DNA from: Tsuneonella amylolytica
Lineage (GTDB): Bacteria; Pseudomonadota; Alphaproteobacteria; Sphingomonadales; Sphingomonadaceae
Length of the DNA: 64,000 nt
Direction: 5' to 3'
NCBI RefSeq assembly: GCF_003626915.1
Contig: NZ_CP032570.1
Coordinates: 1,550,001-1,614,000, forward strand
This document shows, piece after piece, positions 20,446 through 37,200 of the stretch. A program made the position numbers and the translations under genes. The notes below the pieces were generated by a model. That model saw nothing but the letters and a program-made list of their open reading frames with translations, searched no databases and was not told where the DNA came from. Each line of letters begins with the position of its first letter. Position 1 is the stretch's first letter.

Positions 20446-22485
20446 CTACAGCCCCAGCTTGATACCCGCCCAGACCGTGCGCGGGGTACCGTAATCGATC
20501 GACCCGCCCTGGTTGCGGGTGAAGATGGTCTCGTCGGTCAGGTTCTCGCCCCGCAGCACGATCGCGAAACGCTCCGCCAACGGGATTTCGACGAACGCGT
20601 CGAGCGTGGTCGCGGCCGGCAGCACGTCGGTCTCGAGATCGTCCTCGAACTGCGCGCCGACGTGGCGCAGCGTCAGCGAGGCGAGCCCGCTTTCCGCGAA
20701 CCGATACGATACCGTCCCCCCGGCGAACCAGCGCGGGGTCTGGGCCGGCCGCTTGCCGTCGAGCGCCGCGGCCGCTCCGCTGCCCCGTGCGACGGCATCG
20801 GTATAGGCCAGCGACCCGGCGAAATTCACCGGGCCGACCTCAAACGCCGCGGCCGCCTCGACCCCGCGAGCATGGATCGCGTCGATGTTCTGCCGCCGGC
20901 GCAGGTTGGGGGCGATGGTGACGTTGGCGATGGCGCTGCGCACCCGGTTGTCGAAAGCCGTCAGCGACAGGTCGACGCCGGCGACCGGCGCATAGTCCAC
21001 GCCCGCTTCGTAACCGACCAGCCGCTCGTTGCGGAGCGCCGCGTTGGCCTCGGTGGTGACCGGGAAGACCACGAACGGGCGGTAGAGTTCGTTCAGCGTC
21101 GGCAGGCGCAGGCCGGTGTAACCCGCCGCGCGCAGGCGAAGCCCGTCTGCCACCTGCAAGACCGCACCGCCGCGCACCGACGCGCTCCAGTCCGCGCGGT
21201 CGGGGTACACGGTGTCGACCGTAGTCGTCCCGGCGGCGGTGCGGGCGCGGTAGAAACCGTCGCGGACCGTCGTTCGGTCGGCGCGCAGGCCGCCCGTCAG
21301 CGTCAGCGCGCCGAGCGTCAGATCGTTCTCGGCGAACAGGCCGAGGTCCGTGTTGGTGCCACCGGCGTTCCTGCGCTCGGTAATCCGGCCGGTGATGCCG
21401 CTGATCGCGTCCTCGTACAGCTCGCCGGTCGCCTTGCGGTAGTCGAGACCCAGACGCAGAACGTTAGCCGTGCCGGTGGGCGGGCGAACCTCGATCTTGC
21501 CGCCGAGCCCGGTGGAGGGCGTGTTGCGCTGGTCGAGCACCGGACGGAAACTGGTGGAACTGATCACCACGTTGCTGAAATTGCGCGCCTGAACATAGCC
21601 GAGCACGTCGAACTGCCAGAGCCCCCGGCCGACGAGGCGCAGCGATCCGTCGCCCCCTTCCATCGAGCTGTCGGCCCCGTCGAAGCGGAGCGTCCGCTCG
21701 TCGCGAAAGGCGAGCACGCGGGCCTGAAGCTCGGCGTCGGAGGAAACCGGTGCGACCGCGCGGATCTGCGCCGAGCGGGCGTCGTAGGCGGCCCGCGCGC
21801 TGGCCGGCACGCGCTGATCCGCCGGTGTCGTCCAGAACCCCTTGCCGCGATCCCACCGGCCGGAAACGGCCACGAACCCCTCCCCCAGACGCGGCGCGGC
21901 GAACATGCTCGCTTCGGTCTCCGCCCGGTCGTTGACGAGTAGTTTCCCGCCAGCCGGGCCAAGCGATCCCGCCCCGGTCCCTGCCCCCGCACTCGTAAGC
22001 TCGATCGTGCCGGCGAGCGCGCCCGCGCCGAACGGACCCGATCCGCCGCCCCGGGTGACGCGCGCACTCGCGAGCCGTTCGGGCGCGATGGCGCTGAAAG
22101 GGATGTAGCCGAAAAACGGATCGGCCATCGGCACCCCGTCGAGCAGCACCTGCGCCCGGCTGGAAGCGTTGCCGCCCAATGCGCGCAGGGTCGCGCCTTG
22201 AGCGCTGGGGTTGGCAGACCGGCTGTCGGACCGGCGGAACTGCTGGAACCCCGCCACCGCGGACAATGCATCCTCGATCCGGCCCGATCCGGTCGCGATC
22301 AGCGCCTCGCGGTCCAGCACCTGTGTGTCGTAGGCCGGGGTGGCGGGGGGCACCGGCAGGCCTTCGCCCGTGACCACGATCTCGCGGGTGTCGGCAATGG
22401 CAGGCGCGGCATCCTGTGCTTGGGCAGAACCGGCGAACGCCAGCAATGCTGTGCCGGCAAGGTATCGGGCGGCGGCCTTGGTCAT
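20446..22485 (-). CDS. TonB-dependent outer-membrane receptor
   Basis: Outer-membrane receptor of 679 residues with a cleavable signal peptide (to AQAQ near residue 24), a TonB-box-like segment REIVVTGE, a plug domain (about 45-165, QVLDREALIATGSGRIEDAL and VLLDGVPMADPFFG) and a beta-barrel that ends in VWAGIKLGL. The ligand is not evident; the plug and barrel resemble receptors annotated for cobalamin or other small ligands. It ends tail-to-tail 9 bp from the anti-sigma gene. No riboswitch was recognised upstream. Confidence 0.93.
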   Translation of the reverse strand: MTKAAARYLAGTALLAFAGSAQAQDAAPAIADTREIVVTGEGLPVPPATPAYDTQVLDREALIATGSGRIEDALSAVAGFQQFRRSDSRSANPSAQGATLRALGGNASSRAQVLLDGVPMADPFFGYIPFSAIAPERLASARVTRGGGSGPFGAGALAGTIELTSAGAGTGAGSLGPAGGKLLVNDRAETEASMFAAPRLGEGFVAVSGRWDRGKGFWTTPADQRVPASARAAYDARSAQIRAVAPVSSDAELQARVLAFRDERTLRFDGADSSMEGGDGSLRLVGRGLWQFDVLGYVQARNFSNVVISSTSFRPVLDQRNTPSTGLGGKIEVRPPTGTANVLRLGLDYRKATGELYEDAISGITGRITERRNAGGTNTDLGLFAENDLTLGALTLTGGLRADRTTVRDGFYRARTAAGTTTVDTVYPDRADWSASVRGGAVLQVADGLRLRAAGYTGLRLPTLNELYRPFVVFPVTTEANAALRNERLVGYEAGVDYAPVAGVDLSLTAFDNRVRSAIANVTIAPNLRRRQNIDAIHARGVEAAAAFEVGPVNFAGSLAYTDAVARGSGAAAALDGKRPAQTPRWFAGGTVSYRFAESGLASLTLRHVGAQFEDDLETDVLPAATTLDAFVEIPLAERFAIVLRGENLTDETIFTRNQGGSIDYGTPRTVWAGIKLGL

Positions 22486-22652
22486 CGCAGGGGAACTTTC
22501 GAAAGCAGAAAAGAGGTGACGCCGCGCTGCTTAGAGAGGCGGCCTCCCGCGGCCAACCTCCGAACGCGGGAACCGTCGTCGGCGATGAACGGGCCTTACC
22601 GATTGTTAACCATTTTTCGACCATACGCCTTGGCGAACATCCGGGGGGTTCG

Positions 22653-23885
22653 ATGGGCATTCAGCAGCAGCTTTTTCAGGAGCAAACAGGGCGCGCGGCG
22701 GCAAGCGGCGATGCCGTCGACGTCACCATCGTGATGCCCTGTCTCAACGAGATACAAAGCCTGCCGCACTGCATCGGCAACGCGCTGCAAGCGCTCGTGC
22801 GCATCCGCACCGAACTCGGGATGTCGGGCGAGATCGTCATCGCGGACAACGGCTCGACCGACGGCAGCCAGGCGTTTGCGATCGAACTCGGCGCCCGCGT
22901 GGTGCCGGTGGCGGACCGCGGATACGGCGCGGCGCTGATCGGCGGCTGCCACGGGGCGGCCGGCACCTACATCGTCATGGGGGACTGCGACGGCAGCTAC
23001 GACTTCACCGAAGGCGTCGCGATGGTAGCCGAACTCGCCAAGGGCCACGATCTGTGCATGGGCAACCGCTTTCGCGGCGGCATCGCACCGGGCGCGATGC
23101 CGTGGAAGAACCGCCACATCGGCAACCCGGCGCTCACGGGCCTCCTCAACCTCTTCTTCCGTACCGGCATGGGCGACGCGCATTGCGGCCTCCGCGCCAT
23201 TCGCAGGGACGCGTTCGAGCGGCTCAACCTGTCGGGCAGCGGGATGGAATTCGCCAGCGAGATGGTGATCAAGGCCGCGCTGCTGAAACTCGACATGGTC
23301 GAAGTGCCCGCTACCCTGTCGCCCGACCTGCGCCAGCGCGCGCCGCACCTGCGCCCCTGGCGCGACGGCTGGCGGCACTTGCGCTACCTGTTCATGCTCA
23401 GCCCCACTTGGGTCTTCGGCGTACCGGGACTGGTGGCACTGGTGCTCGCGGCGATCATCCTCGGCACCGCCACTGCGCAGTCCATGGGCCTCGTCGCGGG
23501 TCCGCGCTTCTTCGGCGCGAGCTGGAGTGTGGTGGGGGCATTTCTCGCCACCTGCGGCCATTTCTGCCTGCTGTGCGCGGCCGCCATGCACCTTCACGGC
23601 GTGCGCAGCGGATACCGGCGGCTACGGCCCATGTTCGCCCGCTTCGCGCCCGTTCTCACGCTCGAGCATACCCTGATGGCAGGCGGCGCGCTCGTCGTGC
23701 TGTCGATGGGCGCGCTTGGCGTGGTCGGCACCGAATGGGCGAACGATGGCTTCACCGCGCTCGACGACATCCTGCCTCTCGTGGTCTCGGTGATGATCGG
23801 TGCGATCGGCGTCCAGACGCTGGTCGGCGCGTTCCTGCTGGCGATCATCGCGGGCAACGACAACCGCTTCGCACCACGGGGATAA
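22653..23885 (+). CDS. Membrane glycosyltransferase of the dolichyl/polyprenyl-phosphate-mannose synthase type
   Basis: A GT2-family transferase of 410 residues. The N-terminal GT-A domain (residues 24-250) has the usual IVMPCLNE start, ADNGSTDGS nucleotide-binding motif and an Asp-rich GDCDGSYD catalytic loop; the C-terminal part has about four transmembrane helices (about 245-400). It probably transfers a sugar to a membrane polyprenyl-phosphate or lipid. The ATG at MGIQQQ is chosen since the upstream longer frame overlaps the divergent TonB gene region. The next gene, another glycosyltransferase, starts 7 bp after it, so the pair is an operon. Confidence 0.92.
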   Translation: MGIQQQLFQEQTGRAAASGDAVDVTIVMPCLNEIQSLPHCIGNALQALVRIRTELGMSGEIVIADNGSTDGSQAFAIELGARVVPVADRGYGAALIGGCHGAAGTYIVMGDCDGSYDFTEGVAMVAELAKGHDLCMGNRFRGGIAPGAMPWKNRHIGNPALTGLLNLFFRTGMGDAHCGLRAIRRDAFERLNLSGSGMEFASEMVIKAALLKLDMVEVPATLSPDLRQRAPHLRPWRDGWRHLRYLFMLSPTWVFGVPGLVALVLAAIILGTATAQSMGLVAGPRFFGASWSVVGAFLATCGHFCLLCAAAMHLHGVRSGYRRLRPMFARFAPVLTLEHTLMAGGALVVLSMGALGVVGTEWANDGFTALDDILPLVVSVMIGAIGVQTLVGAFLLAIIAGNDNRFAPRG

Positions 23886-23892
23886 CGGCGCG

Positions 23893-24816
23893 ATGGGCAA
23901 GCCCGTCCTGTCGGTCGTCATGCCGGTCCATGGCGGCGGAGCCTGGCTGGACGCGGCGTTGGCGAGCATTCCCGATGCCGCGGACGGCGATGTCGAAGTG
24001 CTGGTCCTCGATTCTACCTCGTCGGGCCCCTGCCGCGATGCGGTGGACCGGCACGCACGGCGGCTCCGGATCGACTATGCCTGGATGCCCGCCACGCCGA
24101 GCTGGACCGCCAAGACCAACCTCGGCGTAGAACGGGCGCGTGCCGATCACGTCTGCACCCTCCACCAGGACGACTGCTGGCTGCCCGGCCGGCTGGAAGG
24201 CTTCCTGTCGGAGCGAAGCCGGTATCCCGATGCGACCCTGTTCCTCGGCCCGTCGCGCATCGTCGACGGAAGCGGGCGCGACCTCGGTCCGTGGCAATTG
24301 CCCGTGCCGTTCGGTCCGGTCGCCGAAGACGTGCTGCGCAGCGCGCTTCTCGTCCAGAATTCCATCGCCATTCCCGCACCGGTCGTGCGCCGGGATGCAT
24401 GGCTCGCGGTGGGCGGCCTCGACGAGGCGCTCTGGTACGCGGCCGACTGGGACCTCTGGCTCAAGCTTGCCGCCCACGGGACGGCGATCCACCATCCGCG
24501 CCCGGCCACCGCCTTCCGCGTCCACGGCAATTCGCTCACCATGAGCGGCGACCGCGGCGAGATGGCGACGGAACTCGAACGCGTGCTTGCGCGCCACATG
24601 CCGCCGGGTTGCCGCGAAGAGCGCGTGTGCCGCACATCGGTAAAGGTCAACGTTCTGCTTGCGCGGGCCGTGTCCGGCAGCCCCTTCAGCGCGTTGAAGG
24701 CGATTGCGGCGATCCTCGCGCTGGGGCCGCGCGGGGCGGTTCGTTATCTCCACGCCTCGCGGTTCGCCGAGCGCATCCTTCCGCGCCTGCGCGCGCGGTT
24801 TGCGGGGGTGTTCTGA
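23893..24816 (+). CDS. Family 2 glycosyltransferase
   Basis: Soluble GT-A glycosyltransferase of 307 residues with the GT2 opening VLSVVMPVHGGG, LVLDSTSSG, the DxD-like LHQDDCW loop (about residue 93) and an acceptor-side LWYAADWDLWLKLA motif (about 180-195). It lies in a two-gene operon with the polytopic glycosyltransferase. Probably adds a sugar to a surface glycolipid or polysaccharide; the acceptor is not known. Confidence 0.9.
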   Translation: MGKPVLSVVMPVHGGGAWLDAALASIPDAADGDVEVLVLDSTSSGPCRDAVDRHARRLRIDYAWMPATPSWTAKTNLGVERARADHVCTLHQDDCWLPGRLEGFLSERSRYPDATLFLGPSRIVDGSGRDLGPWQLPVPFGPVAEDVLRSALLVQNSIAIPAPVVRRDAWLAVGGLDEALWYAADWDLWLKLAAHGTAIHHPRPATAFRVHGNSLTMSGDRGEMATELERVLARHMPPGCREERVCRTSVKVNVLLARAVSGSPFSALKAIAAILALGPRGAVRYLHASRFAERILPRLRARFAGVF

Positions 24817-24844: not shown

Positions 24845-26527
24845 CTAGCGCGCGCTTCTGAGGCACGGACGCCCTGCGATGCCCTTCGTCAGCGCGACGA
24901 AACCGGACGACGGGGGCAACAGGGGCGGCGAGAAGGCGGACCGGTGCAAGTCCGCCCGCGTCATCGCCGTGATCGAGCCCCGCTCGCAGAGGGTCTCCGT
25001 CTGCGCCGCCGACAGGCTCGGCCCCCACAGGATGACGGGCCGGTTCGACATGTCGGCGCGATTGCGCACGAGGTCGGCGGCGATGAGGCCGGGGTGGGTA
25101 TCGACGATCACGAAATCGCTGTCCTGCGCGTCGATCGTGCGCTGCAACTGGGCGTATGGCCGGATGAAGCCGTGCGCGGCCCACAGGCACATCGGCAGCG
25201 TGACCGCGGCCGTCACCGCGCCCAAGGCCAGCACGCTGCCGTCGGCCGCCTTGCGATCGGCCTTCGCCCAGCGGACGTATCCGTAACCTGCCAGCAGGGC
25301 GAAATTCCCGATCACGCCGTGGAAATAGCGATAGCCCCAGCCGTGGCCCTGATACGGCAGCAATACGAGCATCGCGAGAAGGGTCGCGGCGATCGAACCG
25401 AACAACGCGAGCGCCATGCCCTGGCGCCGGACGATCGCTTCGCGCGACAGGGCGACGAGCGGCAGCAGGAAGAGTGGCATCCATGCTGCGAACCGTGCGA
25501 GGTTGAACGCCATGATCTTGAACGACGTCAGGCTCTGGTTCTCGAACAGCGGTTTCACGCGGTATTCGAAGAACCCCCTCGCCCCCTGGACCGAACCGTC
25601 GGCGGCCGCGATGCCGAACGAATCCACCACCATCGCCGGGTACGATATCCAGAACAGAAGCCCGGCGGCGTAGGCGGCGCTGTAGGCGGCGAACAGGCCC
25701 CAGCGCCGCTGCGGCAGCAGCGTGAGCAGGATGGGTCCGGCAAACAGAGGATGGAACACGATCTGGTGCAGTCCGATCGCCCAGACCCCGATTCCCATCG
25801 CGACGAGATGCTGCCACCAGCGCCCGCGCAGGAACAGCGCAAGCCAGATCAGGTTCAGCGCCAGATGCCCGGTCATCGCATAGGCCGTCATCGCGGTCGC
25901 CAGCACTTGCGCCGAAAGGACGTAGCTCGCCAGCACGACGAGGATCGCGCAGCTGTTGCCGGGGAACAGCCGCCGGGCGATGTCGAACAGCGCCACCAGG
26001 CCCCCGGCTGCCAGCAGGGGATTCACCAACGCGGGGTCGGCGATGTACGAGAACGCGGTGCGCATCATCGCATTGCCCGGCATGTAGTTCGACACCAGCA
26101 GCGCATGGCCCGGCACGTCGAGCAGGAAGTCCGGCACAAGGGCGTCGGAGAATTCGCGCCATCCGGGGGCAAGCGGCTGGGCGAGATTTCCGCCTCGGAA
26201 TATGTCCATGTCGAACACGACCATGTGCTCGTCGCGGGTGAGCGGATAGTCGTACATCACGAAGTAGGTGCCCGCCCACAGCACCAGCGCCAGCAGCACG
26301 GCGGCGACCGCAATCATTGGAAGTCGCAGCGTCAGCTCGGGTAGGCGCCCGGACGGCGCCCGCCATCCCACGTAGACGAGCGCAGCCACGGCAACGATCA
26401 GGACGGGCAAATCCTGCTGGCGAAAGAAGATCGCGGGGATCTTGTCCGGCGTTACCGGAAACAAGGCTGCGACCATCCCCAGCAGCACGGCCGCGACGAG
26501 CCAGCAGGTTCGGTGCAGCGCCGTCAC
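24845..26527 (-). CDS. Polytopic membrane protein, probable GT-C glycosyltransferase
   Basis: A 560-residue integral membrane protein with about 11-12 transmembrane helices. The first loop has YPLTRDEHMVVFD, a D-E pair typical of GT-C (ArnT/PMT-like) enzymes that transfer sugars from polyprenyl phosphates, so I call it a probable GT-C. I place its start at the GTG at 26527, four bases after the stop of the ATP-grasp ligase gene, instead of the longer frame. It is therefore the last gene of the yjf-like minus-strand operon. Its convergent neighbours are two GT2 glycosyltransferases. Confidence 0.72.
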   Translation of the reverse strand: MTALHRTCWLVAAVLLGMVAALFPVTPDKIPAIFFRQQDLPVLIVAVAALVYVGWRAPSGRLPELTLRLPMIAVAAVLLALVLWAGTYFVMYDYPLTRDEHMVVFDMDIFRGGNLAQPLAPGWREFSDALVPDFLLDVPGHALLVSNYMPGNAMMRTAFSYIADPALVNPLLAAGGLVALFDIARRLFPGNSCAILVVLASYVLSAQVLATAMTAYAMTGHLALNLIWLALFLRGRWWQHLVAMGIGVWAIGLHQIVFHPLFAGPILLTLLPQRRWGLFAAYSAAYAAGLLFWISYPAMVVDSFGIAAADGSVQGARGFFEYRVKPLFENQSLTSFKIMAFNLARFAAWMPLFLLPLVALSREAIVRRQGMALALFGSIAATLLAMLVLLPYQGHGWGYRYFHGVIGNFALLAGYGYVRWAKADRKAADGSVLALGAVTAAVTLPMCLWAAHGFIRPYAQLQRTIDAQDSDFVIVDTHPGLIAADLVRNRADMSNRPVILWGPSLSAAQTETLCERGSITAMTRADLHRSAFSPPLLPPSSGFVALTKGIAGRPCLRSAR

Positions 26528-26531
26528 TCGG

Positions 26532-27680
26532 TCATTCGATGACGTGCGGGACGAAGCGCGAGAGGTTGCGCGTGATGCGCGTGGTGTCTTCGCGCATGCC
26601 AAGGCCGGCCGCACGATCGCCCACGATCCAGCTGCCGAGGACGGCGAAAAGGCTGTCCGTTTCGAAGAGCGGCGCGTACTGCTGCACGATCCGCGCTTCG
26701 CCCGCGTAGTCGCCGTCCGCCGCCTCGACCACTGCGCCCCCGCGGCTGATCGCCACGTTCTCGCCCTCGCGCGAGAACAGCGGTTTGCTGACCGCGTCCG
26801 TCATCGCGCCGGCGCGCGGGTCGTCGGCGAAGAACGCGGGCAGCAGGTTGGGATGGTCCGGATGCCGCTCCCACAACAGCGGCAGGATGCCCTTGTTCGA
26901 CAGGATCGCCTTCCACGGCGGCTCGACGAACACGCCGGGTTTCAGGAAACCGGCGAACGGTTCGCGCAGCATGTCTTCCCACGGGTAGAGCTTGAAACAC
27001 CTGTCGATGGTCCGCTGCTGCCGGTCGGTGAAGCGGCCCTGCGCGTCGACCCCGATGGCGCGGATGTCGAGCATTTCGGTCCGGTGACCGGCCTGCACGG
27101 CGCAGTCCATGAGGTAGCGCGTGGTCCCGTGATCCTCCTCGTTCTCCTCCCAGCAGGCGAAGTGGAATATCCGGTCGGCCGGAAGGGCGGCGAAGGCGGC
27201 GACCAGGCTTTCCTGCAGCAGGTTGAACTGGTCGGTCGCGCCGTCCAGCACGCCTCCCTCGATCTGGTCGATCAGCCAGTTGTGCTGGAAGAACGCCGCC
27301 TCGAAGATCGAGGTCGGCGTGTCGGCGTTGTATTCCAGCAGCCTGGCCGGACCGGTCCCGTCGTAGGCGAGGTCGAACCGGCCGTAGATCGTGCCGTCGC
27401 CGGCGGTCCAGCTGTCGCGGATCAGGGCGCGGTGTTCGGGCGGGATCGCCAGCCGGTCGAGCGCGGCATCGTCGCCCACCACGTCGGCCACGAGATCGAG
27501 ACACATGCGGTGAAGCTCCGCGCTCGGCTCCTCGATCCGGTCCTCGATCTCGGCCAGCGAGAAGCCATAGGCGGCATCGTCGACCCAGTACGGCTCGCCG
27601 TACATCGCATGGAAGCCGAACCCGGCCTCGCGCGCGGCATCGCGCCAGCCGGCCCGTTCGGGGATGGAGAAGCGGCGCAC
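26532..27680 (-). CDS. yjfC: Glutathionylspermidine synthase-like ATP-grasp ligase (YjfC/YgiC family)
   Basis: A 382-residue amide-bond-forming ligase of the ATP-grasp type that lacks the amidase half of Gsp. Family segments visible are FGFHAMYGEPYWVD, YGRFDLAYDGTGPARLLEYNADTPTS (nucleotide and Mg2+ binding), KLYPWEDML, EPPWKAILSNKGILPLLWE and KPLFSREGENVAIS. It is predicted to add a peptide or polyamine to an unknown substrate; true glutathionylspermidine synthesis is not shown. It sits in a conserved operon order with DUF1190, DUF350, DUF2491 and a channel. The start is a GTG 15 bp after the DUF1190 gene. Confidence 0.88.
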   Translation of the reverse strand: MRRFSIPERAGWRDAAREAGFGFHAMYGEPYWVDDAAYGFSLAEIEDRIEEPSAELHRMCLDLVADVVGDDAALDRLAIPPEHRALIRDSWTAGDGTIYGRFDLAYDGTGPARLLEYNADTPTSIFEAAFFQHNWLIDQIEGGVLDGATDQFNLLQESLVAAFAALPADRIFHFACWEENEEDHGTTRYLMDCAVQAGHRTEMLDIRAIGVDAQGRFTDRQQRTIDRCFKLYPWEDMLREPFAGFLKPGVFVEPPWKAILSNKGILPLLWERHPDHPNLLPAFFADDPRAGAMTDAVSKPLFSREGENVAISRGGAVVEAADGDYAGEARIVQQYAPLFETDSLFAVLGSWIVGDRAAGLGMREDTTRITRNLSRFVPHVIE

Positions 27681-27695
27681 CCCGGCAGGTTTCCG

Positions 27696-28289
27696 TCAGC
27701 CGCCCCAGCTGCCGCCGCGCGAGAAGCCGCGCCCGCCGAACCCCTTCGACGCCACGGTGCGGGTATTCACGTTGACCGGCGTCGCGACCATCTTGCCGCC
27801 GTTGTTGGCGAGCGTGACGGTGGAGCCTGCCCGGCTGCGGTAGATCGGCGAGCCCCAGTTGCCGCCGCCGTAGTAATAGATGCTGCTCGGGCCTTCGTCG
27901 TAGTAGCGGCGCTGGAGCGAGCGGCCGACCACGAAGCCCGCCAGCGCCGGCACGAAGACCGAGGTCAGCGACGGCTGGCCCGGCTGCTGGATGGCGGTTT
28001 CCTGGCACTGGCCGGTTCCCCAGTCGCCTTCGCACGCGGCGAGCGAGGTGAACGTGGGCGCGGTCCGCTGGTGCTCGATCTCCGCCCCGTTGCGGGCCGC
28101 CCGGCACAAGTCGTCGGGATAACCGGCCGCGGCGCAGGCCTCGACGCTGGTGAACTGGGCGTCCTGGAACGTCGGGGGATCCTCGCACGCGGTGACGGCG
28201 AGCGTCGACGCGGCAGCGATGCTGCCGAGCGCGAGGCGGTGGCGGCGTTCGGCGGCGAACCGGCGGCGCGGGGGGGAAGTGTCGTCCAT
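27696..28289 (-). CDS. yjfM: DUF1190 family lipoprotein-like protein (YjfM/YgiB)
   Basis: A 197-residue DUF1190 protein. The N-terminal segment is basic and Arg-rich, then a hydrophobic stretch ends in TACED, a plausible lipobox Cys (about residue 35). Two Cys-rich repeats (QFTSVEACAAAGYPDDLC and FTSLAACEGDWG) are family-typical, and the C-terminus is Gly/Tyr/Ser rich, ending GFSRGGSWGG. In Escherichia coli the paralogues YgiB and YjfM are encoded next to the YgiC/YjfC ligases, the same arrangement as here. Probably anchored in the envelope. Confidence 0.9.
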   Translation of the reverse strand: MDDTSPPRRRFAAERRHRLALGSIAAASTLAVTACEDPPTFQDAQFTSVEACAAAGYPDDLCRAARNGAEIEHQRTAPTFTSLAACEGDWGTGQCQETAIQQPGQPSLTSVFVPALAGFVVGRSLQRRYYDEGPSSIYYYGGGNWGSPIYRSRAGSTVTLANNGGKMVATPVNVNTRTVASKGFGGRGFSRGGSWGG

Positions 28290-28302
28290 CCTGCGCGCCC
28301 CG

Positions 28303-28704
28303 TCAGTACGTCATGCAGGCGGCATTGAGCATGCCGGTGACCAGCGCGACGCCGCCGGTCCACAGCCCCGCCGCCATCTCGCCGCTCTCGATCCGCTGGG
28401 CGAGGCCGCGCTGCACCGACGCCGCGATGGCGAAGGCGAGCAATTGGATGACCGCCCCGATCGCGCTCCAGATCAGGAAGTCCGCGATCGAGACCGAATT
28501 GGCCGCCGCCGACGCGAGAACCAGGCCGAAGCCCGCCAGCGCGCCCAGGAAAGCGATCGTCGCGGCCACGTTGCCGCCGCGGATCAGGCTGAATTCGTGA
28601 TGCGGCGTGACCTGCGAATAGACGACCGAAAAGAGCGCCAGCAACGCAACGGCGCTGCCGAAATAGGCGAGAAAGGCGGGCAGGCCCGCTACGTATCCGT
28701 ACAT
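28303..28704 (-). CDS. yjfL: DUF350 membrane protein (YjfL-like)
   Basis: A 133-residue integral membrane protein with four transmembrane helices, matching the DUF350/YjfL family (segments GNVAATIAFLGALAGFGLVLAS and IWSAIGAVIQLLAF). It is proposed to support membrane integrity or transport next to PspA-like and ligase genes, but its biochemistry is unknown. It lies between the DUF2491 and DUF1190 genes, with short gaps (33 and 13 bp). Confidence 0.9.
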   Translation of the reverse strand: MYGYVAGLPAFLAYFGSAVALLALFSVVYSQVTPHHEFSLIRGGNVAATIAFLGALAGFGLVLASAAANSVSIADFLIWSAIGAVIQLLAFAIAASVQRGLAQRIESGEMAAGLWTGGVALVTGMLNAACMTY

Positions 28705-28737
28705 TCGACGATCCCCTCCGTAATCCCGTACACCTGG

Positions 28738-29400
28738 TCAGACCCGCTGAACGTCGGCCGCGCCGAGGCCGTAGCCGATCATGAACTCGATGGCCGACCC
28801 TTCGCGCCGGGCGGCTGCGCCCAGCTCGGTCTCGATGTTGATGAGCAGCATCTCGTCGACCGAGCCTATCGGGCGGGCATAGAGCATGCATCGCTGGTGG
28901 ATGTCGCGCCGCCGCTCCCCGTCGTCCACCGTTTCGGTGAATTCGACGAGGTCGGTGTGGCCGTCGCCGTCGCCCCAGTAGCGGGCGTACTCGAGGCCGT
29001 CGGCGTCGTAGCTCGGTGCGCCGATCAGTCCGTCGCGGCCCGTCCAGCGAGCCCAGTCCGATGTGCCGGCCGGCACCACGCTGTCCCACCCGCGATAGAG
29101 GCTGAGATCGCTCATCGTCTCGCGTCCGCCTCCGAACGGGGCGATGACCTGGAGGATGCGTCCCTCGTCGTCGTAGTAGCGGGTGAGCTCGTTCGCGCCG
29201 TCGAGCCGCGCGGTCCCGATCGCGGACACGATGAAAACGCCGCCCTCCGGCGGCTCCATCGCCGGTTCTCCGCCCGCGAGCGCGGCTTGGAGCGACAGGG
29301 TGTCGAGTTGCAGCGCCCCGCCGATCGCGCAGGCGAGCGGGCCGCGTTCTTCCGGCAGTGCGGGCTTCGCCCCCGATCGACCGAACAGTCCGCGGATCAT
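28738..29400 (-). CDS. yjfK: DUF2491 family protein (YjfK-like)
   Basis: A 220-residue cytoplasmic protein of the DUF2491/YjfK family. Typical segments are CAIGGALQLDTLSLQ, RYYDDEGRILQVI and EFMIGYGLGAADVQ. Function unknown. Its start overlaps the channel-gene stop by 4 bp (ATGA), so the two are translationally coupled. It belongs to the yjf-type cluster. Confidence 0.88.
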   Translation of the reverse strand: MIRGLFGRSGAKPALPEERGPLACAIGGALQLDTLSLQAALAGGEPAMEPPEGGVFIVSAIGTARLDGANELTRYYDDEGRILQVIAPFGGGRETMSDLSLYRGWDSVVPAGTSDWARWTGRDGLIGAPSYDADGLEYARYWGDGDGHTDLVEFTETVDDGERRRDIHQRCMLYARPIGSVDEMLLINIETELGAAARREGSAIEFMIGYGLGAADVQRV

Positions 29401-30488
29401 GCGGCCTCGGCCCGGGTGCCGGCCATGCGATGCCAGTCGACGGCCGCGGCATCGATGCGGTTGTCAGCGATGTAATACAGCGTCGTGCCCCCCGTGATCG
29501 TGCAGTCCGCCTGGCAGTTGAGGTCGACCTCGTCGCCCGCTGTGTCCCCGGCCCTGCCGACACCGATCAGGGTCACACCATAGTCCCGCTTGAGGCTGCA
29601 CAGCGCCTCGAAATAGGGAAGCGGCGCACCGAGCGCAGGTACTTTCAGCGAGAACGCCGTGTCGATCGTCTGGTCGGAGAACATCAGCGCGGCAAGGCGC
29701 GAGGCACCGGGATCGCGCGCGGCCCGGGCGAGAAGCCCGCTCGCGAGCGAGGTGACGACTTCCACCTGCGGGAACTGGCGTTCGATCAGGCCGGCGGCGT
29801 TATCGTCCTGCAGGTGGATGACGATGTGCGCGTCGGTCGCGGCGGCGACCGCGGCCAATGTCGCGGTCAGCGTCTCGTCGTCGTCCACCCCGCGGATGAC
29901 GACCCGCGCTGCCCCGGCCGCCCCGGCGCGCAGGAAGCTCTCGATCTCGGACATGCTCGTCGCGGCGACGAAGTCGGCAAGGTCCGGCGCCGGGTTCTCG
30001 GCCAGTCCCGCCGCCAGGAGGACGATGCGATCTTCCCGATGGCCTTGGACCAGCCGCTCGACCAGCGTGCGGGACCGCGCGCCTTGCCAGCCCACCACGA
30101 TGGTGTGCCCCTGCCGCTGCGAGAAATCCCCCTGGCCCTGCAATCGCCGTCTCCAATATCCGCCCATCGCGGTTATCGACTTTCCGAGGAAGGCGGTAAA
30201 GAGGGCAATCGAGCCGGGCAGCACGACCAGCGCGGCCAGCAGGCGGCCGTCGTGCGTGGCCGGCGACATGTCGCCGTATCCCACCGTCGTCGCGGTCGTG
30301 ACGTAGTAGTATACGAAGTCCGCCAGATTGGCGGTGAGGTCGGTTTCGCCGGCTGCCCGGAACCCGAAATAGGTGACCGCCGCGTGCGCCGCGTAACACA
30401 GCGCCAGCACGCTCCACGACAGGGTGGCGATCGACAGGTACAGCTGTTGCCACATCGCGCGTAGCGAAGGGCTTAGTCCCTGCTTCAT
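29397..30488 (-). CDS. Potassium channel with RCK/TrkA-N domain
   Basis: A 363-residue ion channel. Two transmembrane helices flank a pore loop with the potassium selectivity filter TTVGYGDM (about residue 68), followed by a cytoplasmic RCK domain (about 125-330, HTIVVGWQGARSRTLVERL and VVIRGVDDDETLTATLAAV). The start at MKQGLS is preferred to the longer frame, whose upstream segment is Arg/Gly-rich filler in the divergent promoter. In related neighbourhoods a channel of this type accompanies the DUF350/DUF1190/ligase genes, suggesting that it controls ion flow or membrane potential in the same response. Confidence 0.92.
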   Translation of the reverse strand: MKQGLSPSLRAMWQQLYLSIATLSWSVLALCYAAHAAVTYFGFRAAGETDLTANLADFVYYYVTTATTVGYGDMSPATHDGRLLAALVVLPGSIALFTAFLGKSITAMGGYWRRRLQGQGDFSQRQGHTIVVGWQGARSRTLVERLVQGHREDRIVLLAAGLAENPAPDLADFVAATSMSEIESFLRAGAAGAARVVIRGVDDDETLTATLAAVAAATDAHIVIHLQDDNAAGLIERQFPQVEVVTSLASGLLARAARDPGASRLAALMFSDQTIDTAFSLKVPALGAPLPYFEALCSLKRDYGVTLIGVGRAGDTAGDEVDLNCQADCTITGGTTLYYIADNRIDAAAVDWHRMAGTRAEAA

Positions 30489-30619
30489 CCCGGATCGCCC
30501 CCTCTTGCCACCACCGCCGCTGCGTCTAAAGCTGGCGCCGTATCGCGGGTATACTTCATCGGCGGCGGGTCGCAACCGGTGCCGCCGCTCGCGAGCCGAC
30601 AGACGACTGGAGAGAGTGC
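30489..30619. promoter_or_regulatory. Divergent promoter region of the yjf-like cluster
   Basis: A 131-bp spacer between the channel and DUF2170 genes that must carry both promoters. A TATACT hexamer on the plus strand (about 30551) could be a -10 element, but no good -35 is visible. The yjfI start has a nearby GGAGAG. Regulation is not resolvable by eye. Confidence 0.45.
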
Positions 30620-31102
30620 TTGCCGAACATGTCCGATTGGCCGACCCCGCCCGCTGGCTGGGATGTCGCCAGCCTTACCGAACTGTTCGCGTCCGATCCC
30701 GACGACGTCGGCGATGTGGACGTCGAGGTACCTACGGGTAGCGACGTCCTCCAGATTACCTTGAAAGAGCGCGGCAATCTCATTGTCTCGGCGGTCGCCT
30801 CGGGCGATCAGGTCCAGTGCAGCGTGCTGCTGATCGAGGCCGATGCCGTGCCCGAGCGCGCGGCGTTCGAGCGCACTCTTCTGTCGGTGCACAAGCTCAT
30901 TCCGCTGTCCAATTTCGGCCTGACGATCGTGGACGGCGCCGAATGGTACGAACTGTTCGGCAGGCTGTCGTCGCGGTCGGCGTCGGCCGACGTGGTGGAG
31001 GAAGTCGCCGTGCTCGCTGACAACGCACGCAACGCGGCGGAATGGATTGCGGAATGGGTCGCGGCCGGCGGCGACCAGTCACGGATCGGAGAACTGGCAT
31101 GA
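30620..31102 (+). CDS. yjfI: DUF2170 family protein (YjfI-like)
   Basis: DUF2170 family protein of about 160 residues, homologous to E. coli YjfI, encoded directly before a PspA-like protein. The middle has the recognisable segment LSVHKLIPLSNFGLTIVDG. Acidic, no signal or membrane segment. The TTG at 30620 has a GGAGAG ribosome site 5 bases upstream; the alternative ATG at 30629 lies 14 bases from it, so the TTG start is slightly favoured. Its stop overlaps the PspA-like start (ATGA). Confidence 0.88.
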   Translation: MPNMSDWPTPPAGWDVASLTELFASDPDDVGDVDVEVPTGSDVLQITLKERGNLIVSAVASGDQVQCSVLLIEADAVPERAAFERTLLSVHKLIPLSNFGLTIVDGAEWYELFGRLSSRSASADVVEEVAVLADNARNAAEWIAEWVAAGGDQSRIGELA

Positions 31103-31833
31103 GCGTCTGGGGCAAGCTGTTCACCGCACTGCGCGGCGGCATCAACGAGAACGCCGAAAAGGTCGCCGACAGCCAGGCGATGCGCATCCTCGACCAGGAA
31201 CTGCGCGACGCGGACGGGGCTCTGCGTCAGGCGCGCGGAGATCTCGCGGGCCTGATGGCCAGCGCCAAGCGTATCGAGAAACGCGTCGCCGACACGCGCG
31301 ACAAGGAAGCGCGCGACATCCAGAACGCGCGCGCGGCGCTCGATGCCGGTCGCGAGGACCTCGCACGCCAACTCGCCGAACGGGTCGCGACCACCCGCGC
31401 CGAACTCGCGCGCGACGAAAGCGATCTCGCCACGATGCAGCAGCAGCAGGCCGCCATGTACCGCACGGTCAAGGAGACCGAGGCGCGGATCGCCGCGATG
31501 AAGCGCGAAGTCGAAAGCGTGAAGGCGACCGATTCGCTCCAACGGGCGCAGAAGGCGATCGCCTCCTCGCATGCCGGCGTGAATTCCCGGCTGGGCAGCG
31601 CGATGGGTTCGCTCGAACGCATTCGCGACCAGCAGTCGCACATGGCGGCCCGTCTCGAAGCGGGCGAGGAACTTGCGGCACTCGAATCGGGCGCAGACCT
31701 CGACCGCCAGCTGCTCGAGGCTGGTATCGGCGGGCAGGTTTCGAAAGCGGACGACATCCTGCTCGAGATCGCCGGACCGCCGCGCGAAACCCGGCTGCTG
31801 CCCGGCAAGAAGGCCGACGACGAGGACGCGTAA
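31099..31833 (+). CDS. yjfJ: PspA/IM30 family protein (YjfJ-like)
   Basis: A 244-residue PspA/IM30 (ESCRT-III-like) protein. It has the short amphipathic N-terminal region (MSVWGKLFTALRGG), then long heptad-patterned coiled coils (about residues 20-190) rich in Glu, Arg and Ala, and an acidic tail. Such proteins polymerise on stressed membranes and help to seal or reshape them. It forms a two-gene unit with the DUF2170 gene, divergent from the channel/ligase operon. The ATG overlaps the DUF2170 stop. Confidence 0.94.
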   Translation: MSVWGKLFTALRGGINENAEKVADSQAMRILDQELRDADGALRQARGDLAGLMASAKRIEKRVADTRDKEARDIQNARAALDAGREDLARQLAERVATTRAELARDESDLATMQQQQAAMYRTVKETEARIAAMKREVESVKATDSLQRAQKAIASSHAGVNSRLGSAMGSLERIRDQQSHMAARLEAGEELAALESGADLDRQLLEAGIGGQVSKADDILLEIAGPPRETRLLPGKKADDEDA

Positions 31834-31852: not shown

Positions 31853-32358
31853 ATGGGGTATCGGTAAGGCACCTGATCATCCTCGATGTTGAAACGACGG
31901 GTCTCGATGCGATTCGGCACTCCATCGTGGAGCTTTGCGCTGCTCGGATAGCTATCGATGGCAAGGGCGCCGTCGTTGCTATTGAGTGCATTCGCGTCGG
32001 ACTTCGCCACCCGGGTCAACCGCTGTCCGAAGCGATCCGCGAAATCTCCGGCCTAAATGACGAAGACCTCGCGGGACAGTCCATCGATCCCGATGACCTC
32101 ATGTCGTTCCTCGATACCGGTGCGGCTGTTGTTGCCTTCAACACCGGCTTTGATCGTCCCTTCGTCGAAGGCATCGCACCCGAAGCCAGTCCACTGCGCT
32201 GGGGGTGCCCCATGCACCACATACCGTGGCGGGCGCTCGGCTTCGAGCCTGGATCGCAGGGATATCTTCTTTGCCAGTCCGGATGGCACCGGGACAACCG
32301 GTGCTGCTGGTGTCCGCGGACCGCCGTAATGCGTGGCGGCTGCGTGACGGTCGGCTAG
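31853..32358 (+). pseudogene. Decayed DnaQ-like 3'-5' exonuclease gene
   Basis: The frame from about 31864 encodes HLIILDVETTGLDA (exonuclease motif I, D-x-E), GLNDEDLAG, and AFNTGFDRPFVEG (motif II), so a DEDDh exonuclease is certain. There is no ATG, GTG or TTG in this frame between the PspA stop and GTG 31927, which lies after motif I. A purine-rich ribosome site and ATG (31853) exist, but one base out of phase, ending in a stop after four codons, so a single-base loss after the start fits best. The C-terminal end (HRDNRCCW) lacks the usual motif III Asp, and the frame then runs into another reading frame. I judge it non-functional. Confidence 0.75.
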
Positions 32359-32575: not shown

Positions 32576-33175
32576 ATGCACACCATTTCCCCGGCGCCTG
32601 CGCTCACCTGCGCACTCGCCCTCGTTCACTCCGCTCCGGAATTTGCGCCTGCCGACCGCATCGTAGCGGCAGCAGTTTTCATCGTCACCGACGACACCAT
32701 TGGGACCCGGTTCGACCTGCGGATGGTCGTAGTCCCACCTGCGCTCTCACGCGCCCAAGCGATCAAGCACGCCGCCAATCTCCTGCCGAACTGCGCAACG
32801 GTGCTCGTTCGGCCACCACGGCTGCCGCGGGGGCTTGTCCGGCACCTGACCTCCGGCGGCTCCATGCCGGTGCGGACGGTCGCGCAGGCTCTCACGGTAG
32901 CGCGCCCCGATCTCGACGTGCAGGCAATCGCCATTCCCGAGGAGGCAATGATCACCGTGGCACGTTACTTCAGCCTGAGCCGTGCCGGGCGGGACGACGT
33001 CCTCGCCGCACAGGCCCGCCGGGTCGAAGACGAAGCACAAGCGATCTTCCTCACCGCCATGTTTACAAGGCCGGGCGAGCGTGAGCGCAAGCGGTTGGCC
33101 GCCGCATACGAGGCTTGGCGCGCTCTCCGGCGGGCGCGCCTTCTCTCGCCTTTCGGCACGGCGGAGGCGTTCTGA
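32576..33175 (+). CDS. Hypothetical accessory protein
   Basis: A 199-residue protein that I do not recognise. The N-terminus is not a convincing signal peptide; a mixed alpha/beta half (residues 1-120, AVFIVTDDTIGTRFDLRMVVVPP) is followed by a helical, Arg/Ala-rich C-terminus (EDEAQAIFLTAMF to RRARLLS). A ribosome site (TTGAGG) lies upstream of the ATG. Its stop overlaps the likely start of the following exonuclease. It belongs to the small accessory patch after the PspA gene. Confidence 0.65.
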   Translation: MHTISPAPALTCALALVHSAPEFAPADRIVAAAVFIVTDDTIGTRFDLRMVVVPPALSRAQAIKHAANLLPNCATVLVRPPRLPRGLVRHLTSGGSMPVRTVAQALTVARPDLDVQAIAIPEEAMITVARYFSLSRAGRDDVLAAQARRVEDEAQAIFLTAMFTRPGERERKRLAAAYEAWRALRRARLLSPFGTAEAF

Positions 33176-33927
33176 TCACCCAGTCTTACATCGCCTTCGA
33201 TTGCGAATTCGAGTGGCGCGCGGACTGGCATGCCGCTCATCTCAGCATGGATGCCTCGTCCCAGCGCCGATCCGTCACTGTTCGGGAGATCACCGCCATC
33301 GCTGCTTACGCTTACACCGTCGACGGCGATGGCGCCGTGAGCATCGATACGCTGACCTCGTGGAACCAGCATGACTGGGGCGACGAGGCGGAGGTCGTGG
33401 AGCAGTTCTTCGAGTTCGTCCGCCGGCGGCCGCAGCACGTTGTCTTGGGCTATGGCTCGATCGCCACGGACCTTCCGGTGATGCGGTTGGCCGCAATGAC
33501 TGCCGGGCTACGCCTGCCGCAGCAACTGATCGACCAGCCCGGGGCTTGGGACCGCAAGCACCTCGACCTCGCGCTGGCGATCAAGGGGCGGGGGCGAACT
33601 TGGGTTCACCTGTCGCAGCTGCTCATCCGCATCGGAGTGCCCCTCGCGCTGGTCGCAGGCAAGGCGGAGGCGCCGTTGCCGGACAGCGAGGAGAAATGGC
33701 GCAGCCTGCGGGACCACGTCGAACTGGACACCCTGCTCCTGGCTCTGGCGCATACCAGCTGGCTGGTGAGCACGGGCTGCAACGGCGTCCGCTATGCCCC
33801 GGCCGCGATTGAGCACCTGTCCGCGTTCCTCCGGCGACAGCCCGAACATGCACGGGCAAGCGAGCTGATCGGCTACCAGCGGCAGCTCGAGTGCGAAGTG
33901 GCGGAGCAATACCGCGACGCCGCCTGA
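33115..33927 (+). CDS. Predicted 3'-5' exonuclease (DEDD family, PolB-exonuclease-like)
   Basis: A predicted exonuclease with motif I YIAFDCEFEW (Asp and Glu), motif II around VLGYGSIATDLPVM (Asp), and motif III in RDHVELDTLL. The first 19 codons from the TTG at 33115 overlap the preceding gene and look unlike the family; a CTG at 33172, overlapping the previous stop (CTGA) and preceded by GGAGG four bases upstream, fits the expected start just before motif I. No ATG or GTG fits. A perfect 12-bp hairpin follows the gene. Function may be repair or trimming of DNA ends; the partner protein is unknown. Confidence 0.75.
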   Translation: MARSPAGAPSLAFRHGGGVLITQSYIAFDCEFEWRADWHAAHLSMDASSQRRSVTVREITAIAAYAYTVDGDGAVSIDTLTSWNQHDWGDEAEVVEQFFEFVRRRPQHVVLGYGSIATDLPVMRLAAMTAGLRLPQQLIDQPGAWDRKHLDLALAIKGRGRTWVHLSQLLIRIGVPLALVAGKAEAPLPDSEEKWRSLRDHVELDTLLLALAHTSWLVSTGCNGVRYAPAAIEHLSAFLRRQPEHARASELIGYQRQLECEVAEQYRDAA

Positions 33928-34273: not shown

Positions 34274-37200
34274 TCACAAAGTGCAATTCCGGTCGTCTTT
34301 CGGACAGAGATCGTCCACTTGAATCGATATCCCGCTTCCGCCACCAAGACGCTCGACTTCGCTCGGTAGCTGAAGCGTGCGAAGCGTGTTGGGTACGGGG
34401 GTCGGTCGCACTGTGAACGTCCCGCCGATGAAGGTGATCGTGTAGTTCGCTCCTGCGGTGACCGAGCCTTGGCCAATTGCGTAGTTTCCGACGATTTCGC
34501 CTGGCGCGCGTTGTAGGGTTCCTGTGAGTGAATCACCGGCCACGAGCCCCGCGCCGCCCACCGTGTAGGTCAGAGCCGGGTCGATCTGGCCCTGCGACTT
34601 CGACCCGTCGACGGCGACAATCTCGATCGCTCGCCTGAGGATGTCGGCGAGAGCCGTCGTTGGCAGCGTCAGCGTGTAGTTGCCGCTATCCACGCCCGCC
34701 AGCGAGGTTCCAGCGGCTCGAACCGTCTTGTCGGTTCCTGCGTTCGGATCGACGAACGTGAAAGTGGTGCCTGTGGTCGAGACCGCGTCGCCTGCGACGA
34801 CGCCCGTCAGCGTGACCGTGCCGGTCGCCGCGATGGTACCGTCATAGACCTTGTCGTTCACACTCACCGATCCGGTGATCGCTTTGGCAAGAATATCGGC
34901 CAGCGCAGTCGAGGTGCCGGTCAATGTGTAGTTGCCTGCGTCCGTGCCGGTCAGGGTGGTCCCCGATGCAGTGACGATCTTGTCGGTGCCGGCGTTCTTG
35001 TCCGCAAATGCGAACGCCGTACCGCTGGTGCCGACGCTGTCACTCGCGACGATACCGGTCAGCACCAGCGATCCTGTCGCCACGGTCGTGCCGTCGTAGG
35101 TCTTGTCGTTCGCGCTGGCCGTGGCCGTGATTGCCTTGGCGAGGATGTCGGCCATCGCGCTCGTCGGGACGTTGACGGTGTAATTGCCCGCGTCTGCGCC
35201 GGTTAGCGTCGTGCCGCTAATCGTCACGCTCTTGTCGGTGCCCGCGTTCTTGTCGGCGAAGGTGAAAGTAGTGCCGCTGGTCGCAACGCTGTCGCCGGAA
35301 ACGACGCCGACAAGCGAAACCGATCCGGTGCCTGCGGTTGTTCCGTCGTACGTCTTGTCGTTCGCGACCACGGTGGCGGAGATTGCCTTGGCGAAAATGT
35401 CCGCCAGTGTCGAAGCCGGGATGGTTAGCGTATAGTTGCCCGCGTCGGCCCCGGTGAGGGTCGTGCCGGCGATGACGACAGTCTTGTCCGCTCCGGCGTT
35501 CTTGTCGGAGAAGGCGAACGTCGTGCCCGCCGTATCCACGCTGTCGCCCGCGACCACACCGACGAGCGAAACCGAACCCGTCGCCGCGGTTGTTCCGTCG
35601 TACGTCTTGTCGTTCGCGACCACGGTGGTGGAGATTGCCTTGGCGAAAATGTCCGCAAGCGTAGTTGCCGGGACGGTCACGACGTAGTTGCCCGCGTCCG
35701 TGCCCGTCAGCGTGGTGCCGCCGATCGTGACCGTCTTGTCGGGCCCGGCGTTCTTGTCGGAGAATGTGAATGTCGTACCGCTCGTGCCCAAGTCGTCCCC
35801 GGCAAGAACGCCGGTAAGCGCGACTGAGCCGGTGGCGGCGGTCGTGCCGTCGTAGGTCTTGTCGTCTGCGGAGACCGTAGCGCCGATGGCGCGCGCGAAA
35901 ATGTCGGCCAAGGTTGTTGCCGGTACGGTCAGTACGTAATTCCCGGCATCCGCGCCGGTGAGGGTGGTGCCGCTTACGATCACGGTCTTGTCGGTGACGG
36001 CGTTCTTGTCGGAGAACGCGAAGGTGGTGCCGCTCGCGCCCAGGTCGTCTCCGGCCACCACGCCGTTCAATGACACGGACCCGGTCGCCGAAGCGGTGCC
36101 GTCGTAGGTCTTGTCGTCGGCCACCACCGTTGCGCCGATCGCCTTTGCGAAGATATCGGCGAGCGTGCTGGCCGGTACCGTCAGGCTGTAGTTGCCCGCG
36201 TCGCTTCCGCTCAGCATGGCACCGCTGATGGTGACCGTCTTGTCCACCCCCACGTTCTTGTCGGAGAAGGTGTAGGTCGTGCCGGTGATGGTCACGTCGT
36301 CTCCCGACAAGAAGCCGGCGGACGAGATGCTGCCGGTGCCGGCCGTGGTTCCGTCGTAGGTCTTGTCGTCGGCCGCTGCAGACGCGGTTACCGGTTTCGG
36401 CGTCACCGTGAGCGTTCCCGCGTCGCTCAGCGCGATGGCATAGCCCCTGGCGGCCGCCAGAGTGCCAAGCTCGATATCCATGACGTACGGGCTGCCTGCG
36501 ACATCGGCTCGCTCGGCGGCGCCGACCGAAGTGATCGTGGGCGATCCGCTCAGGGTATTTGTAGCCGTATCGGCGAGATAGGCCCCCGCCACGCCCGGCT
36601 GAAAACCGCTGGCGGTGTAATAGCCGTCCAGCATACCGGTGAGGTCGGTCCCGTAGACCTTGCTCAGGCTGGTCGAGGATATTGTCAGCGTGGGCTGGAA
36701 AGCGAAGACATAGCGATTGCCGGACACCGCGCCTGGCGCCAGCGTGGCGATCGTCGCGTTCCAGATTGCGGTATTGCCGCTGTCGAGATTGCCGAAGGTG
36801 TTGCCCGCCGGCCCATTCGAATAGACGACCCAGTGGTCGCTGGCGGTGATCGCATCTGCGCCGCGGTCGTTGATGAAATTGCCGTCAGCCGAGAGCGCGA
36901 CGATCCGGCCGGTGACGCTGCCGCCGCTGCTCACGGTAAGGTCGCCGGTCGTCTTCAGGGTGACGTCCTGCCCGGTCGCGGTAACCGGCCCGGTAACCGA
37001 CAGGTCGGCAAGCGTATTGACCATTACCGTTCCGCCTGCGCTCAAGCCGGCGAGCGTATCGATCCGATTGGCGCCCGACAATGTCAGCGCTCCGCCGGTA
37101 TTCGCGGTGAAAGACGTCACGACGATCGAGCCGGACGAGGCCACCGACGACGGTGCCAGGGTGCTTCCGATCGCCAGCGAAGCGGCCCCGCCCGAGACAT

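Follow-up and report, generated by a model that had tools for sequence, protein, structure and literature searches.

The C-terminal tail of DUF1190 proteins as a candidate natural substrate of YgiC/YjfC-type ligases

Background

What is the natural substrate of the stand-alone ATP-grasp ligase encoded in a PspA gene cluster of Tsuneonella amylolytica? The cluster lies in a window of 64,000 nucleotides, positions 1550001-1614000 of a 2.79 Mb single-contig genome (NZ_CP032570.1), and all coordinates below count from the first letter of the window. Open reading frame (ORF) calls and Pfam matches place seven families in one 5.3 kb stretch: the ligase (GSP_synth), a DUF1190 lipoprotein, a DUF350 membrane protein, a DUF2491 protein, a K+ channel, a DUF2170 protein and a PspA/IM30 protein. 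The homologous enzymes of E. coli are YgiC and YjfC. For these too, the linkage described here between the ligase and the C-terminal tail of DUF1190 brings the question of the natural substrate and that of DUF1190 function together in one testable candidate.

The assembly of the cluster has already been described and is not new. The same seven families form the third class of CesT/Tir-PspA gene neighbourhoods of Ravi et al. 2024 (PMC11237479; papers given by PMC number are cited for the sections covered here). Besides the DUF2170-PspA dyad, that class has DUF350, DUF1190, DUF2491, an ATP-grasp ligase and a K+ channel that senses intracellular ligands; a link between polyamines and membrane dynamics was proposed for it, and a metal-chelating role was suggested for DUF1190. 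The sections covered do not mention a DUF1190 tail. What we propose in addition, from sequence comparison, is a candidate natural substrate for the ligase, namely this tail. Among the open-licence papers listed by our searches, most of them judged from the listing, we saw none that names the tail as ligase substrate; Pederick 2023 or others may have noted it. A first-pass annotation of this DNA, made from the letters alone, had left the ligase without a substrate. This holds insofar as the natural peptide is still only a candidate; as to the amine, however, the E. coli homologues have been reported to use spermidine, and for the peptide side our comparison points to the DUF1190 tail.

The ligase and its DUF1190 partner

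The ligase gene (26532..27680, minus strand) encodes 382 residues, in which Pfam shows only GSP_synth (460.2 bits) and no amidase domain. The protein shares 49.9% identity with YgiC, 45.7% with YjfC and 27.1% with GspS, and its solved relatives are PDB 7uk8 and 7uk6. It is the only PF03738 gene in the genome. Ten GspS positions that we take to be catalytic (R316, D318, E330, N332, E391, K498, K533, R538, Q568 and R598) align with R101, D103, E116, N118, E182, K263, K299, R304, Q333 and R363 of the window ligase, so that all ten are kept. Across 65 aligned rows a single sequence deviates, at seven of the ten positions: a degenerate copy on a 5.5 kb contig (L106). The first-pass annotation had staked its ligase on the presence of the ATP-grasp residues, and these are intact, as judged by alignment rather than from a structural model.

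YgiC and YjfC share these catalytic residues and are, like the window ligase, stand-alone GSP_synth proteins. Pederick 2023 reportedly described them as peptide-spermidine ligases, the name that RefSeq also gives them. Elsewhere the E. coli enzymes are termed peptidylpolyamine synthetases (PMC12568646), and YgiC is stated, citing Sui 2012, to be without glutathionylspermidine synthase activity (PMC12506659). By sequence, the window protein fits a putative peptide-spermidine ligase of the YgiC/YjfC type. The bifunctional GspS, in contrast, has the same ATP-grasp family and catalytic residues but carries an amidase domain, acts on glutathione and is only 27% identical.

The neighbouring gene (27696..28289, minus strand; Pfam 89.7 bits, cut-off 22) encodes a DUF1190 protein of 197 residues with a predicted lipobox cysteine, Cys35, followed by Cys52, 62, 86 and 95; the cysteine columns are invariant in an alignment of 32 sequences. 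Its C-terminal tail, KGFGGRGFSRGGSWGG (27699..27746, minus strand), ends in WGG and is the proposed acceptor, on the grounds of conservation and ligase linkage. A similar end is found in both E. coli proteins, where YgiB terminates in SRSMGG and YjfM in RGHWGG. In an alignment of 35 sequences the Gly-x-Gly inside a GG[FY]G motif is invariant, the linker that follows differs in length between proteins, and the end is largely constant. The structural model of the window protein is weak (mean predicted local distance difference test score, pLDDT, 68.8), with residues 174-191 below 50, and the tail is probably flexible on this model.

DUF1190 was found by profile scan in 63 of 398 genomes sampled from the phylum. 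Among the DUF1190 proteins of the module loci, which were found through DUF2491 (see below), together with that of the window, 21 of 26 end exactly in Gly-Gly. We then considered 65 proteins from the module loci, the DUF1190-scan loci and E. coli, each encoded at a locus that also has a ligase gene. Of these, 54 end in Gly-Gly, where shuffling of the last 25 residues would give 3.7, and after weighting by cluster (30 clusters at 50% core identity) the Gly-Gly sum is 22.0 against 1.85 expected. The two genes lie within 300 bases of each other in 59 of the 65 cases (48 with Gly-Gly ends), and the six DUF1190 genes situated 2.6-3.7 kb from the ligase all encode Gly-Gly ends. Neither the motif nor the Gly-Gly end occurs in any of six DUF1190-like ORFs that have no ligase in the fetched stretch (L094, L101, L102, L103, L109 and L111), five of which are weak matches. 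L094 comes from a genome of the window's own family (G012) in which the DUF1190 gene is present, the PF03738 scan gives no match, and the motif and the Gly-Gly end are absent. Two further weak DUF1190-like ORFs, in L095, also have no tail.

One tail-bearing DUF1190 protein (L096:3863-4507, plus strand) has no lipobox cysteine in the alignment, which suggests an anchor other than lipid.

Pairing of the ligase with the tail in a ligase-first scan

As the above loci had been picked by DUF2491 or DUF1190, we repeated the search starting from the ligase. PF03738 was found at 102 places in 91 of the 398 genomes. The 100 examined, which leave out a fragment with a stop (G254:C2) and a match below the cut-off (G374), comprise 12 enzymes of bifunctional size (620-646 residues) and 88 stand-alone ligases. 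A script looking for the pattern [GQSRYK]G[FYL]G within the 60 C-terminal residues detected a motif-bearing partner in the locus of 80 of the 88 stand-alone ligases, 65 of them ending in Gly-Gly. The pattern missed RGGFT, RGGFK and RGGWG, and four partners were added by eye: L278 and L280 (RGGFT and RGGFK, both ending GG), L275 (a downstream gene, SRGGFT, ending GGG) and L277 (SRGGWG, ending HS). The total is thus 84 of the 88, with 68 Gly-Gly ends. For the 12 bifunctional GspS enzymes the same script found no partner.

A second sample consisted of named genomes picked by ligase alignment alone. In the best 80 of at least 589 confirmed matches, a set skewed to close relatives and Enterobacterales, the partner is present at 79 and ends in Gly-Gly at 72 by script, or 73 with L213 corrected; the sole exception (L223) is a 3.5 kb contig that we scored as partnerless. 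At L213 and L262 the script had picked wrong overlapping ORFs, and the true tails were read separately. Among the remaining irregular tails, that of L274 reads FGGFG, without the arginine, and ends in GGS, while the reading of L194 continues beyond the motif and was scored as not Gly-Gly.

Position served as a control. Over 166 stand-alone loci the motif occurs upstream of the ligase in 143, downstream in 14 and on the opposite strand in nine, and the motif combined with a Gly-Gly end in 122, two and one, respectively. A stricter pattern, R-x-G-[FYW], is found upstream in 64 of 88 and 73 of 80 loci of the two samples, downstream in two and three, and on the opposite strand in two and none. For comparison, 4.8% of 3,218 ORFs of at least 150 codons, real or not, end in Gly-Gly. 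The pairing of a stand-alone GSP_synth ligase with a protein carrying an RGGFG-like motif, mostly with a Gly-Gly end, is near-constant.

The Cys-rich core of the partner is less constant. At eight of ten loci of family f14 (L257-L266), five loci of family f49 (L267-L271) and L169, L170, L208 and L213, the core is weakly recognised or unrecognised by the DUF1190 profile, and a short protein keeps RGGFG or RSGFG and a Gly/Ser-rich end; judged by eye, many of these proteins have a basic N-terminus and a hydrophobic stretch. That the tail persists where the core fades suggests, more strongly than any other observation here, that the ligase requires the tail.

Proposed mechanism and alternatives

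GspS attaches spermidine to glutathione at the C-terminal glycine. A ligase of the GspS family paired with a probably flexible tail that has a conserved terminal glycine suggests the same chemistry on a protein, and we consider it somewhat better than an even chance that the DUF1190 tail is the natural acceptor of the ligase. The enzymatic core would then consist of two genes, one for the stand-alone ATP-grasp ligase and one for a small partner, exported or anchored in the membrane, whose flexible C-terminal tail follows the plan RGGFG, variable linker, and an end such as aromatic-Gly-Gly. With ATP, the ligase would activate the terminal glycine carboxylate of the tail, at a site near R101 and the proposed Mg ligands D103, E116 and N118, and link it to a primary amino group of a polyamine, for which spermidine is the likeliest candidate. 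Capping would turn the negative end of the tail into a polycation, and the protein, exported afterwards, could bridge anionic phospholipid or lipopolysaccharide. The cluster as a whole would be an envelope-maintenance module in which PspA and its DUF2170 partner act on the inner leaflet, while DUF350, DUF2491 and the RCK-type K+ channel make the response depend on the state of ions or polyamines. The gene set, its co-conservation, the conserved catalytic residues and the linkage of ligase and tail are shown by the comparisons here, whereas we infer the tail as acceptor, the identity of the amine, when capping occurs with respect to export, and what PspA, the channel, DUF350 and DUF2491 do.

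Such a product is chemically reasonable, as SUMO and ubiquitin, which end in Gly-Gly, have been reported to take spermidine on that carboxylate (PMC12270671). The window DUF1190 protein shares the Gly-Gly end (WGG), where a spermidine amide is our proposal. The resemblance would be functional only: SUMO and ubiquitin are beta-grasp proteins served by E1/E2 enzymes, while Pfam assigns the protein and the enzyme here to DUF1190 and GSP_synth. Extended to the Pseudomonadota, the proposal would be a dedicated, widespread pathway of protein modification: a stand-alone ATP-grasp ligase would put a polyamine on the Gly-Gly end of an exported or membrane-anchored partner, using an RGGFG-like recognition element; E. 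coli would have it twice (YgiB/YgiC and YjfM/YjfC), and the clusters with PspA, DUF2491 and the K+ channel would be its regulated envelope-stress version. We regard this wider scheme as evenly balanced between true and false.

Several observations weigh against capping of the tail. The main one is topological: the lipobox or hydrophobic N-terminus should put the tail in the periplasm, and ATP is cytosolic, so capping would have to precede export. No partner was found at four of the 88 stand-alone ligases (L258, L264, L281 and the divergent ligase L282), and the Gly-Gly end is missing or the partner absent in 20 of the 88, with endings such as GS or SSSS beside intact ligases. Conversely, the degenerate ligase L106, lacking seven of the ten checked residues, stands beside a tail. 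The same genome (G425) has on another contig the intact ligase L281, and a partner in trans is therefore possible. The end varies more than the internal motif and may thus not be what reacts. On the control sides, the script pattern turns up by chance at a rate of about 5-8%, the stricter one gives a chance upstream match, with no Gly-Gly, at one of the 12 bifunctional loci, and the counts are not independent because the members share descent.

The supply of the amine in T. amylolytica is a further point of this kind. Profile searches of the genome found no PF01564 spermidine synthase; they found no PF01916 gene either. A compact polyamine locus (G000:C1, approximately 370700-374500) has three genes side by side, all below curated cut-offs. 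One is ornithine-decarboxylase-like and reaches no curated cut-off, another resembles carboxynorspermidine decarboxylase (375.6 bits against a TIGR01047 cut-off of 409.05), and the third resembles carboxynorspermidine synthase (385.2 bits against an NF043000 cut-off of 800). Judging from these similarities, it is plausible that spermidine is made by the carboxyspermidine route.

The best-surviving alternative to the tail as acceptor is that the substrates of the ligase are other small peptides or fragments of the envelope, and that the tail is a docking or inhibitory element controlling the enzyme. The description of the E. coli enzymes as peptide-spermidine ligases or peptidylpolyamine synthetases (PMC12568646) agrees with this, as do the several partners of intact ligases that have no Gly-Gly end, but a docking element needs no fixed extreme C-terminus, and this is what is seen while the linker varies in length. 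We consider this explanation unlikely, though worth keeping in view. More doubtful still is a role of the tail as a precursor, in which RGGFG marks a site of recognition or cleavage and the short peptide released ends up in a soluble peptide-polyamine metabolite, which might serve as ligand for the RCK-type channel. It would account for the motif being more constant than the very end, for lineages that keep only a short tail protein, and for a channel whose RCK region lacks the Ca2+ ligands of MthK, so that another ligand is possible; on the other hand, the tail end itself is strongly conserved, and no conserved peptidase gene was noticed at the loci, where the systematic search covered the seven module families only. 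That the ligase is an ordinary glutathionylspermidine synthase with incidental neighbours is very improbable, as the Pfam family and catalytic residues common to GspS are outweighed by the absent amidase domain, an identity of 27% to GspS against 50% to YgiC, the statement on YgiC activity (PMC12506659, citing Sui 2012) and the lack of partner linkage at the 12 bifunctional enzymes; by architecture, identity and literature we reject this assignment.

If capping of the tail is correct, the conjugation of spermidine to SUMO and ubiquitin (PMC12270671) would have a counterpart in bacteria that relies on unrelated chemistry, and polyamines, lipoproteins and the PspA envelope response would be linked in a concrete way. 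If it is wrong, one would still have to explain why ligase and tail occur together so constantly.

Organization and co-conservation of the cluster

The cluster is arranged in two divergent arms, and all named families score over the curated Pfam cut-offs. On the minus strand, the channel (29397..30488; Ion_trans_2, 45.6 bits; ATG start at 30488 inferred) overlaps the DUF2491 gene of the YjfK family (28738..29400; 140 bits) by four bases, and gaps of 33, 13 and 15 bases separate the subsequent genes, namely DUF350 of the YjfL family (28303..28704; 117.8 bits), DUF1190 and the ligase. On the plus strand, DUF2170 of the YjfI/BacA family (30629..31102; 117.9 bits; start inferred, with an alternative TTG at 30620) overlaps the PspA/IM30 gene of YjfJ type (31099..31833; PspA_IM30, 139.4 bits; start inferred) by four bases. 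The intergenic region between the arms (30489..30628) measures about 140 bases if the inferred starts hold. The families and strands named in the first-pass annotation were thus all confirmed by Pfam at these coordinates. Its picture of a membrane module of ligase, PspA and channel fits Ravi et al. (PMC11237479) and the reported YgiC/YjfC activity, in that a peptide-polyamine ligase lies beside PspA and the channel; the class, however, had already been described.

DUF2170 has been described as CesT/Tir-like (PMC11237479), and for the DUF2170 protein BacA of P. aeruginosa a crystal structure and a biofilm phenotype have been reported (PMC10948618). Against the NCBIfam BacA model the window protein scores 69.1 bits, below the cut-off of 300.

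DUF2491 (PF10679) is rare, occurring in three of 147 genomes sampled from the order and 29 of the 398 from the phylum, the genome of the window being included in both. We took about 20 kb around all 29 DUF2491 matches outside this genome (one stretch, near a contig end, is 15.3 kb) and ran iterated profiles, built from ten proteins of the window, against these stretches. All six yjf families were found within 20 kb at 25 of the 29 loci, the DUF2170 of L051 being counted from a separate analysis. The other four (L058-L061) have DUF2491 alone, except L060, which has DUF350 as well. This co-occurrence is far above chance, and the two halves of the cluster are co-conserved, a point on which the first-pass annotation had made its reading depend. 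The DUF2170-PspA dyad is divergent from the DUF2491 arm at ten of the 25 loci, as in the window, and co-directional at 15. The channel is present at 20 of the 25 six-family loci and missing at L046, L049, L052, L056 and L057.

Compared with the cluster described here, E. coli K-12 has the same families without a channel in the cluster, as the six genes yjfIJKLMC, while ygiBC is a bare two-gene unit. The yjfIJKL genes are strongly up-regulated in heat-evolved E. coli (PMC12492005). The earlier likening of the cluster to the E. coli yjf set with an added channel is borne out for the six families and, at 20 of 25 loci, for the channel, but not for an adjoining ORF read as a GT-C protein. This ORF of 589 codons (24845-26614), GT-C-like according to the first-pass annotation, lies downstream and has no Pfam match; together with two neighbouring GT2 genes it recurs at none of the 29 related loci, which rules these genes out as module members.

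The two family-2 glycosyltransferase genes (22416-24816, plus strand) lie beside the GT-C-like ORF and perhaps form a separate glycosylation locus.

The channel has a TVGYGD K+ filter and a divergent RCK-type cytoplasmic domain, and aligns with MthK residues 50-302 across the pore and RCK regions (E 5.9e-08). Like MthK, it has a two-helix pore, the K+ filter and an RCK-like region, but the Ca2+ ligands are not kept: the positions aligned to D184, E210 and E212, which we take to be the MthK ligands, are R, H and Q, as read by hand in a weakly conserved region. Another ligand is therefore likely, and the channel probably responds to one different from the Ca2+ of MthK. DUF2491 is beta-rich and its model is confident (pLDDT 91.7); a Foldseek search of the PDB returned nothing at E <=0.001, the best match having E 0.027 and TMq 0.22.

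At L195, L211 and L221 (and L209) the channel lies beside DUF350, DUF1190 and the ligase without DUF2491 or DUF2170, an arrangement that makes the linkage of channel and ligase independent of DUF2491. In one genome from the same family as the window, the module has a second channel-like gene nearby (L033:16520-17605, plus strand; 218 bits).

As a side question, horizontal transfer was considered from the occurrence of DUF2491 in three of 147 genomes of the order and from a ligase tree. A contig scan with DUF2491 alone found no relative, whereas the ligase alignment did give matches. In the tree, the window ligase groups with that of L033, from the same family (100/98), within a clade of Rhizobiales ligases (100/100), while two Sphingomonas records (L210 and L212) group with Brevundimonas and genomes of family f12 (98/95).

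Other features of the window

Three further regions near the cluster were noted. Just past the PspA gene, two ORFs (31927-32358 and 33115-33927, plus strand), the first one short, are by eye 3'-5' exonuclease-like. A 679-codon ORF (20446-22485, minus strand) is by eye similar to TonB-dependent receptors. Finally, an ORF of 2158 codons (34274-40750, minus strand) contains many near-repeats (KTYDGTTAATGS-like units) and resembles a filamentous-haemagglutinin-type or other surface repeat protein.

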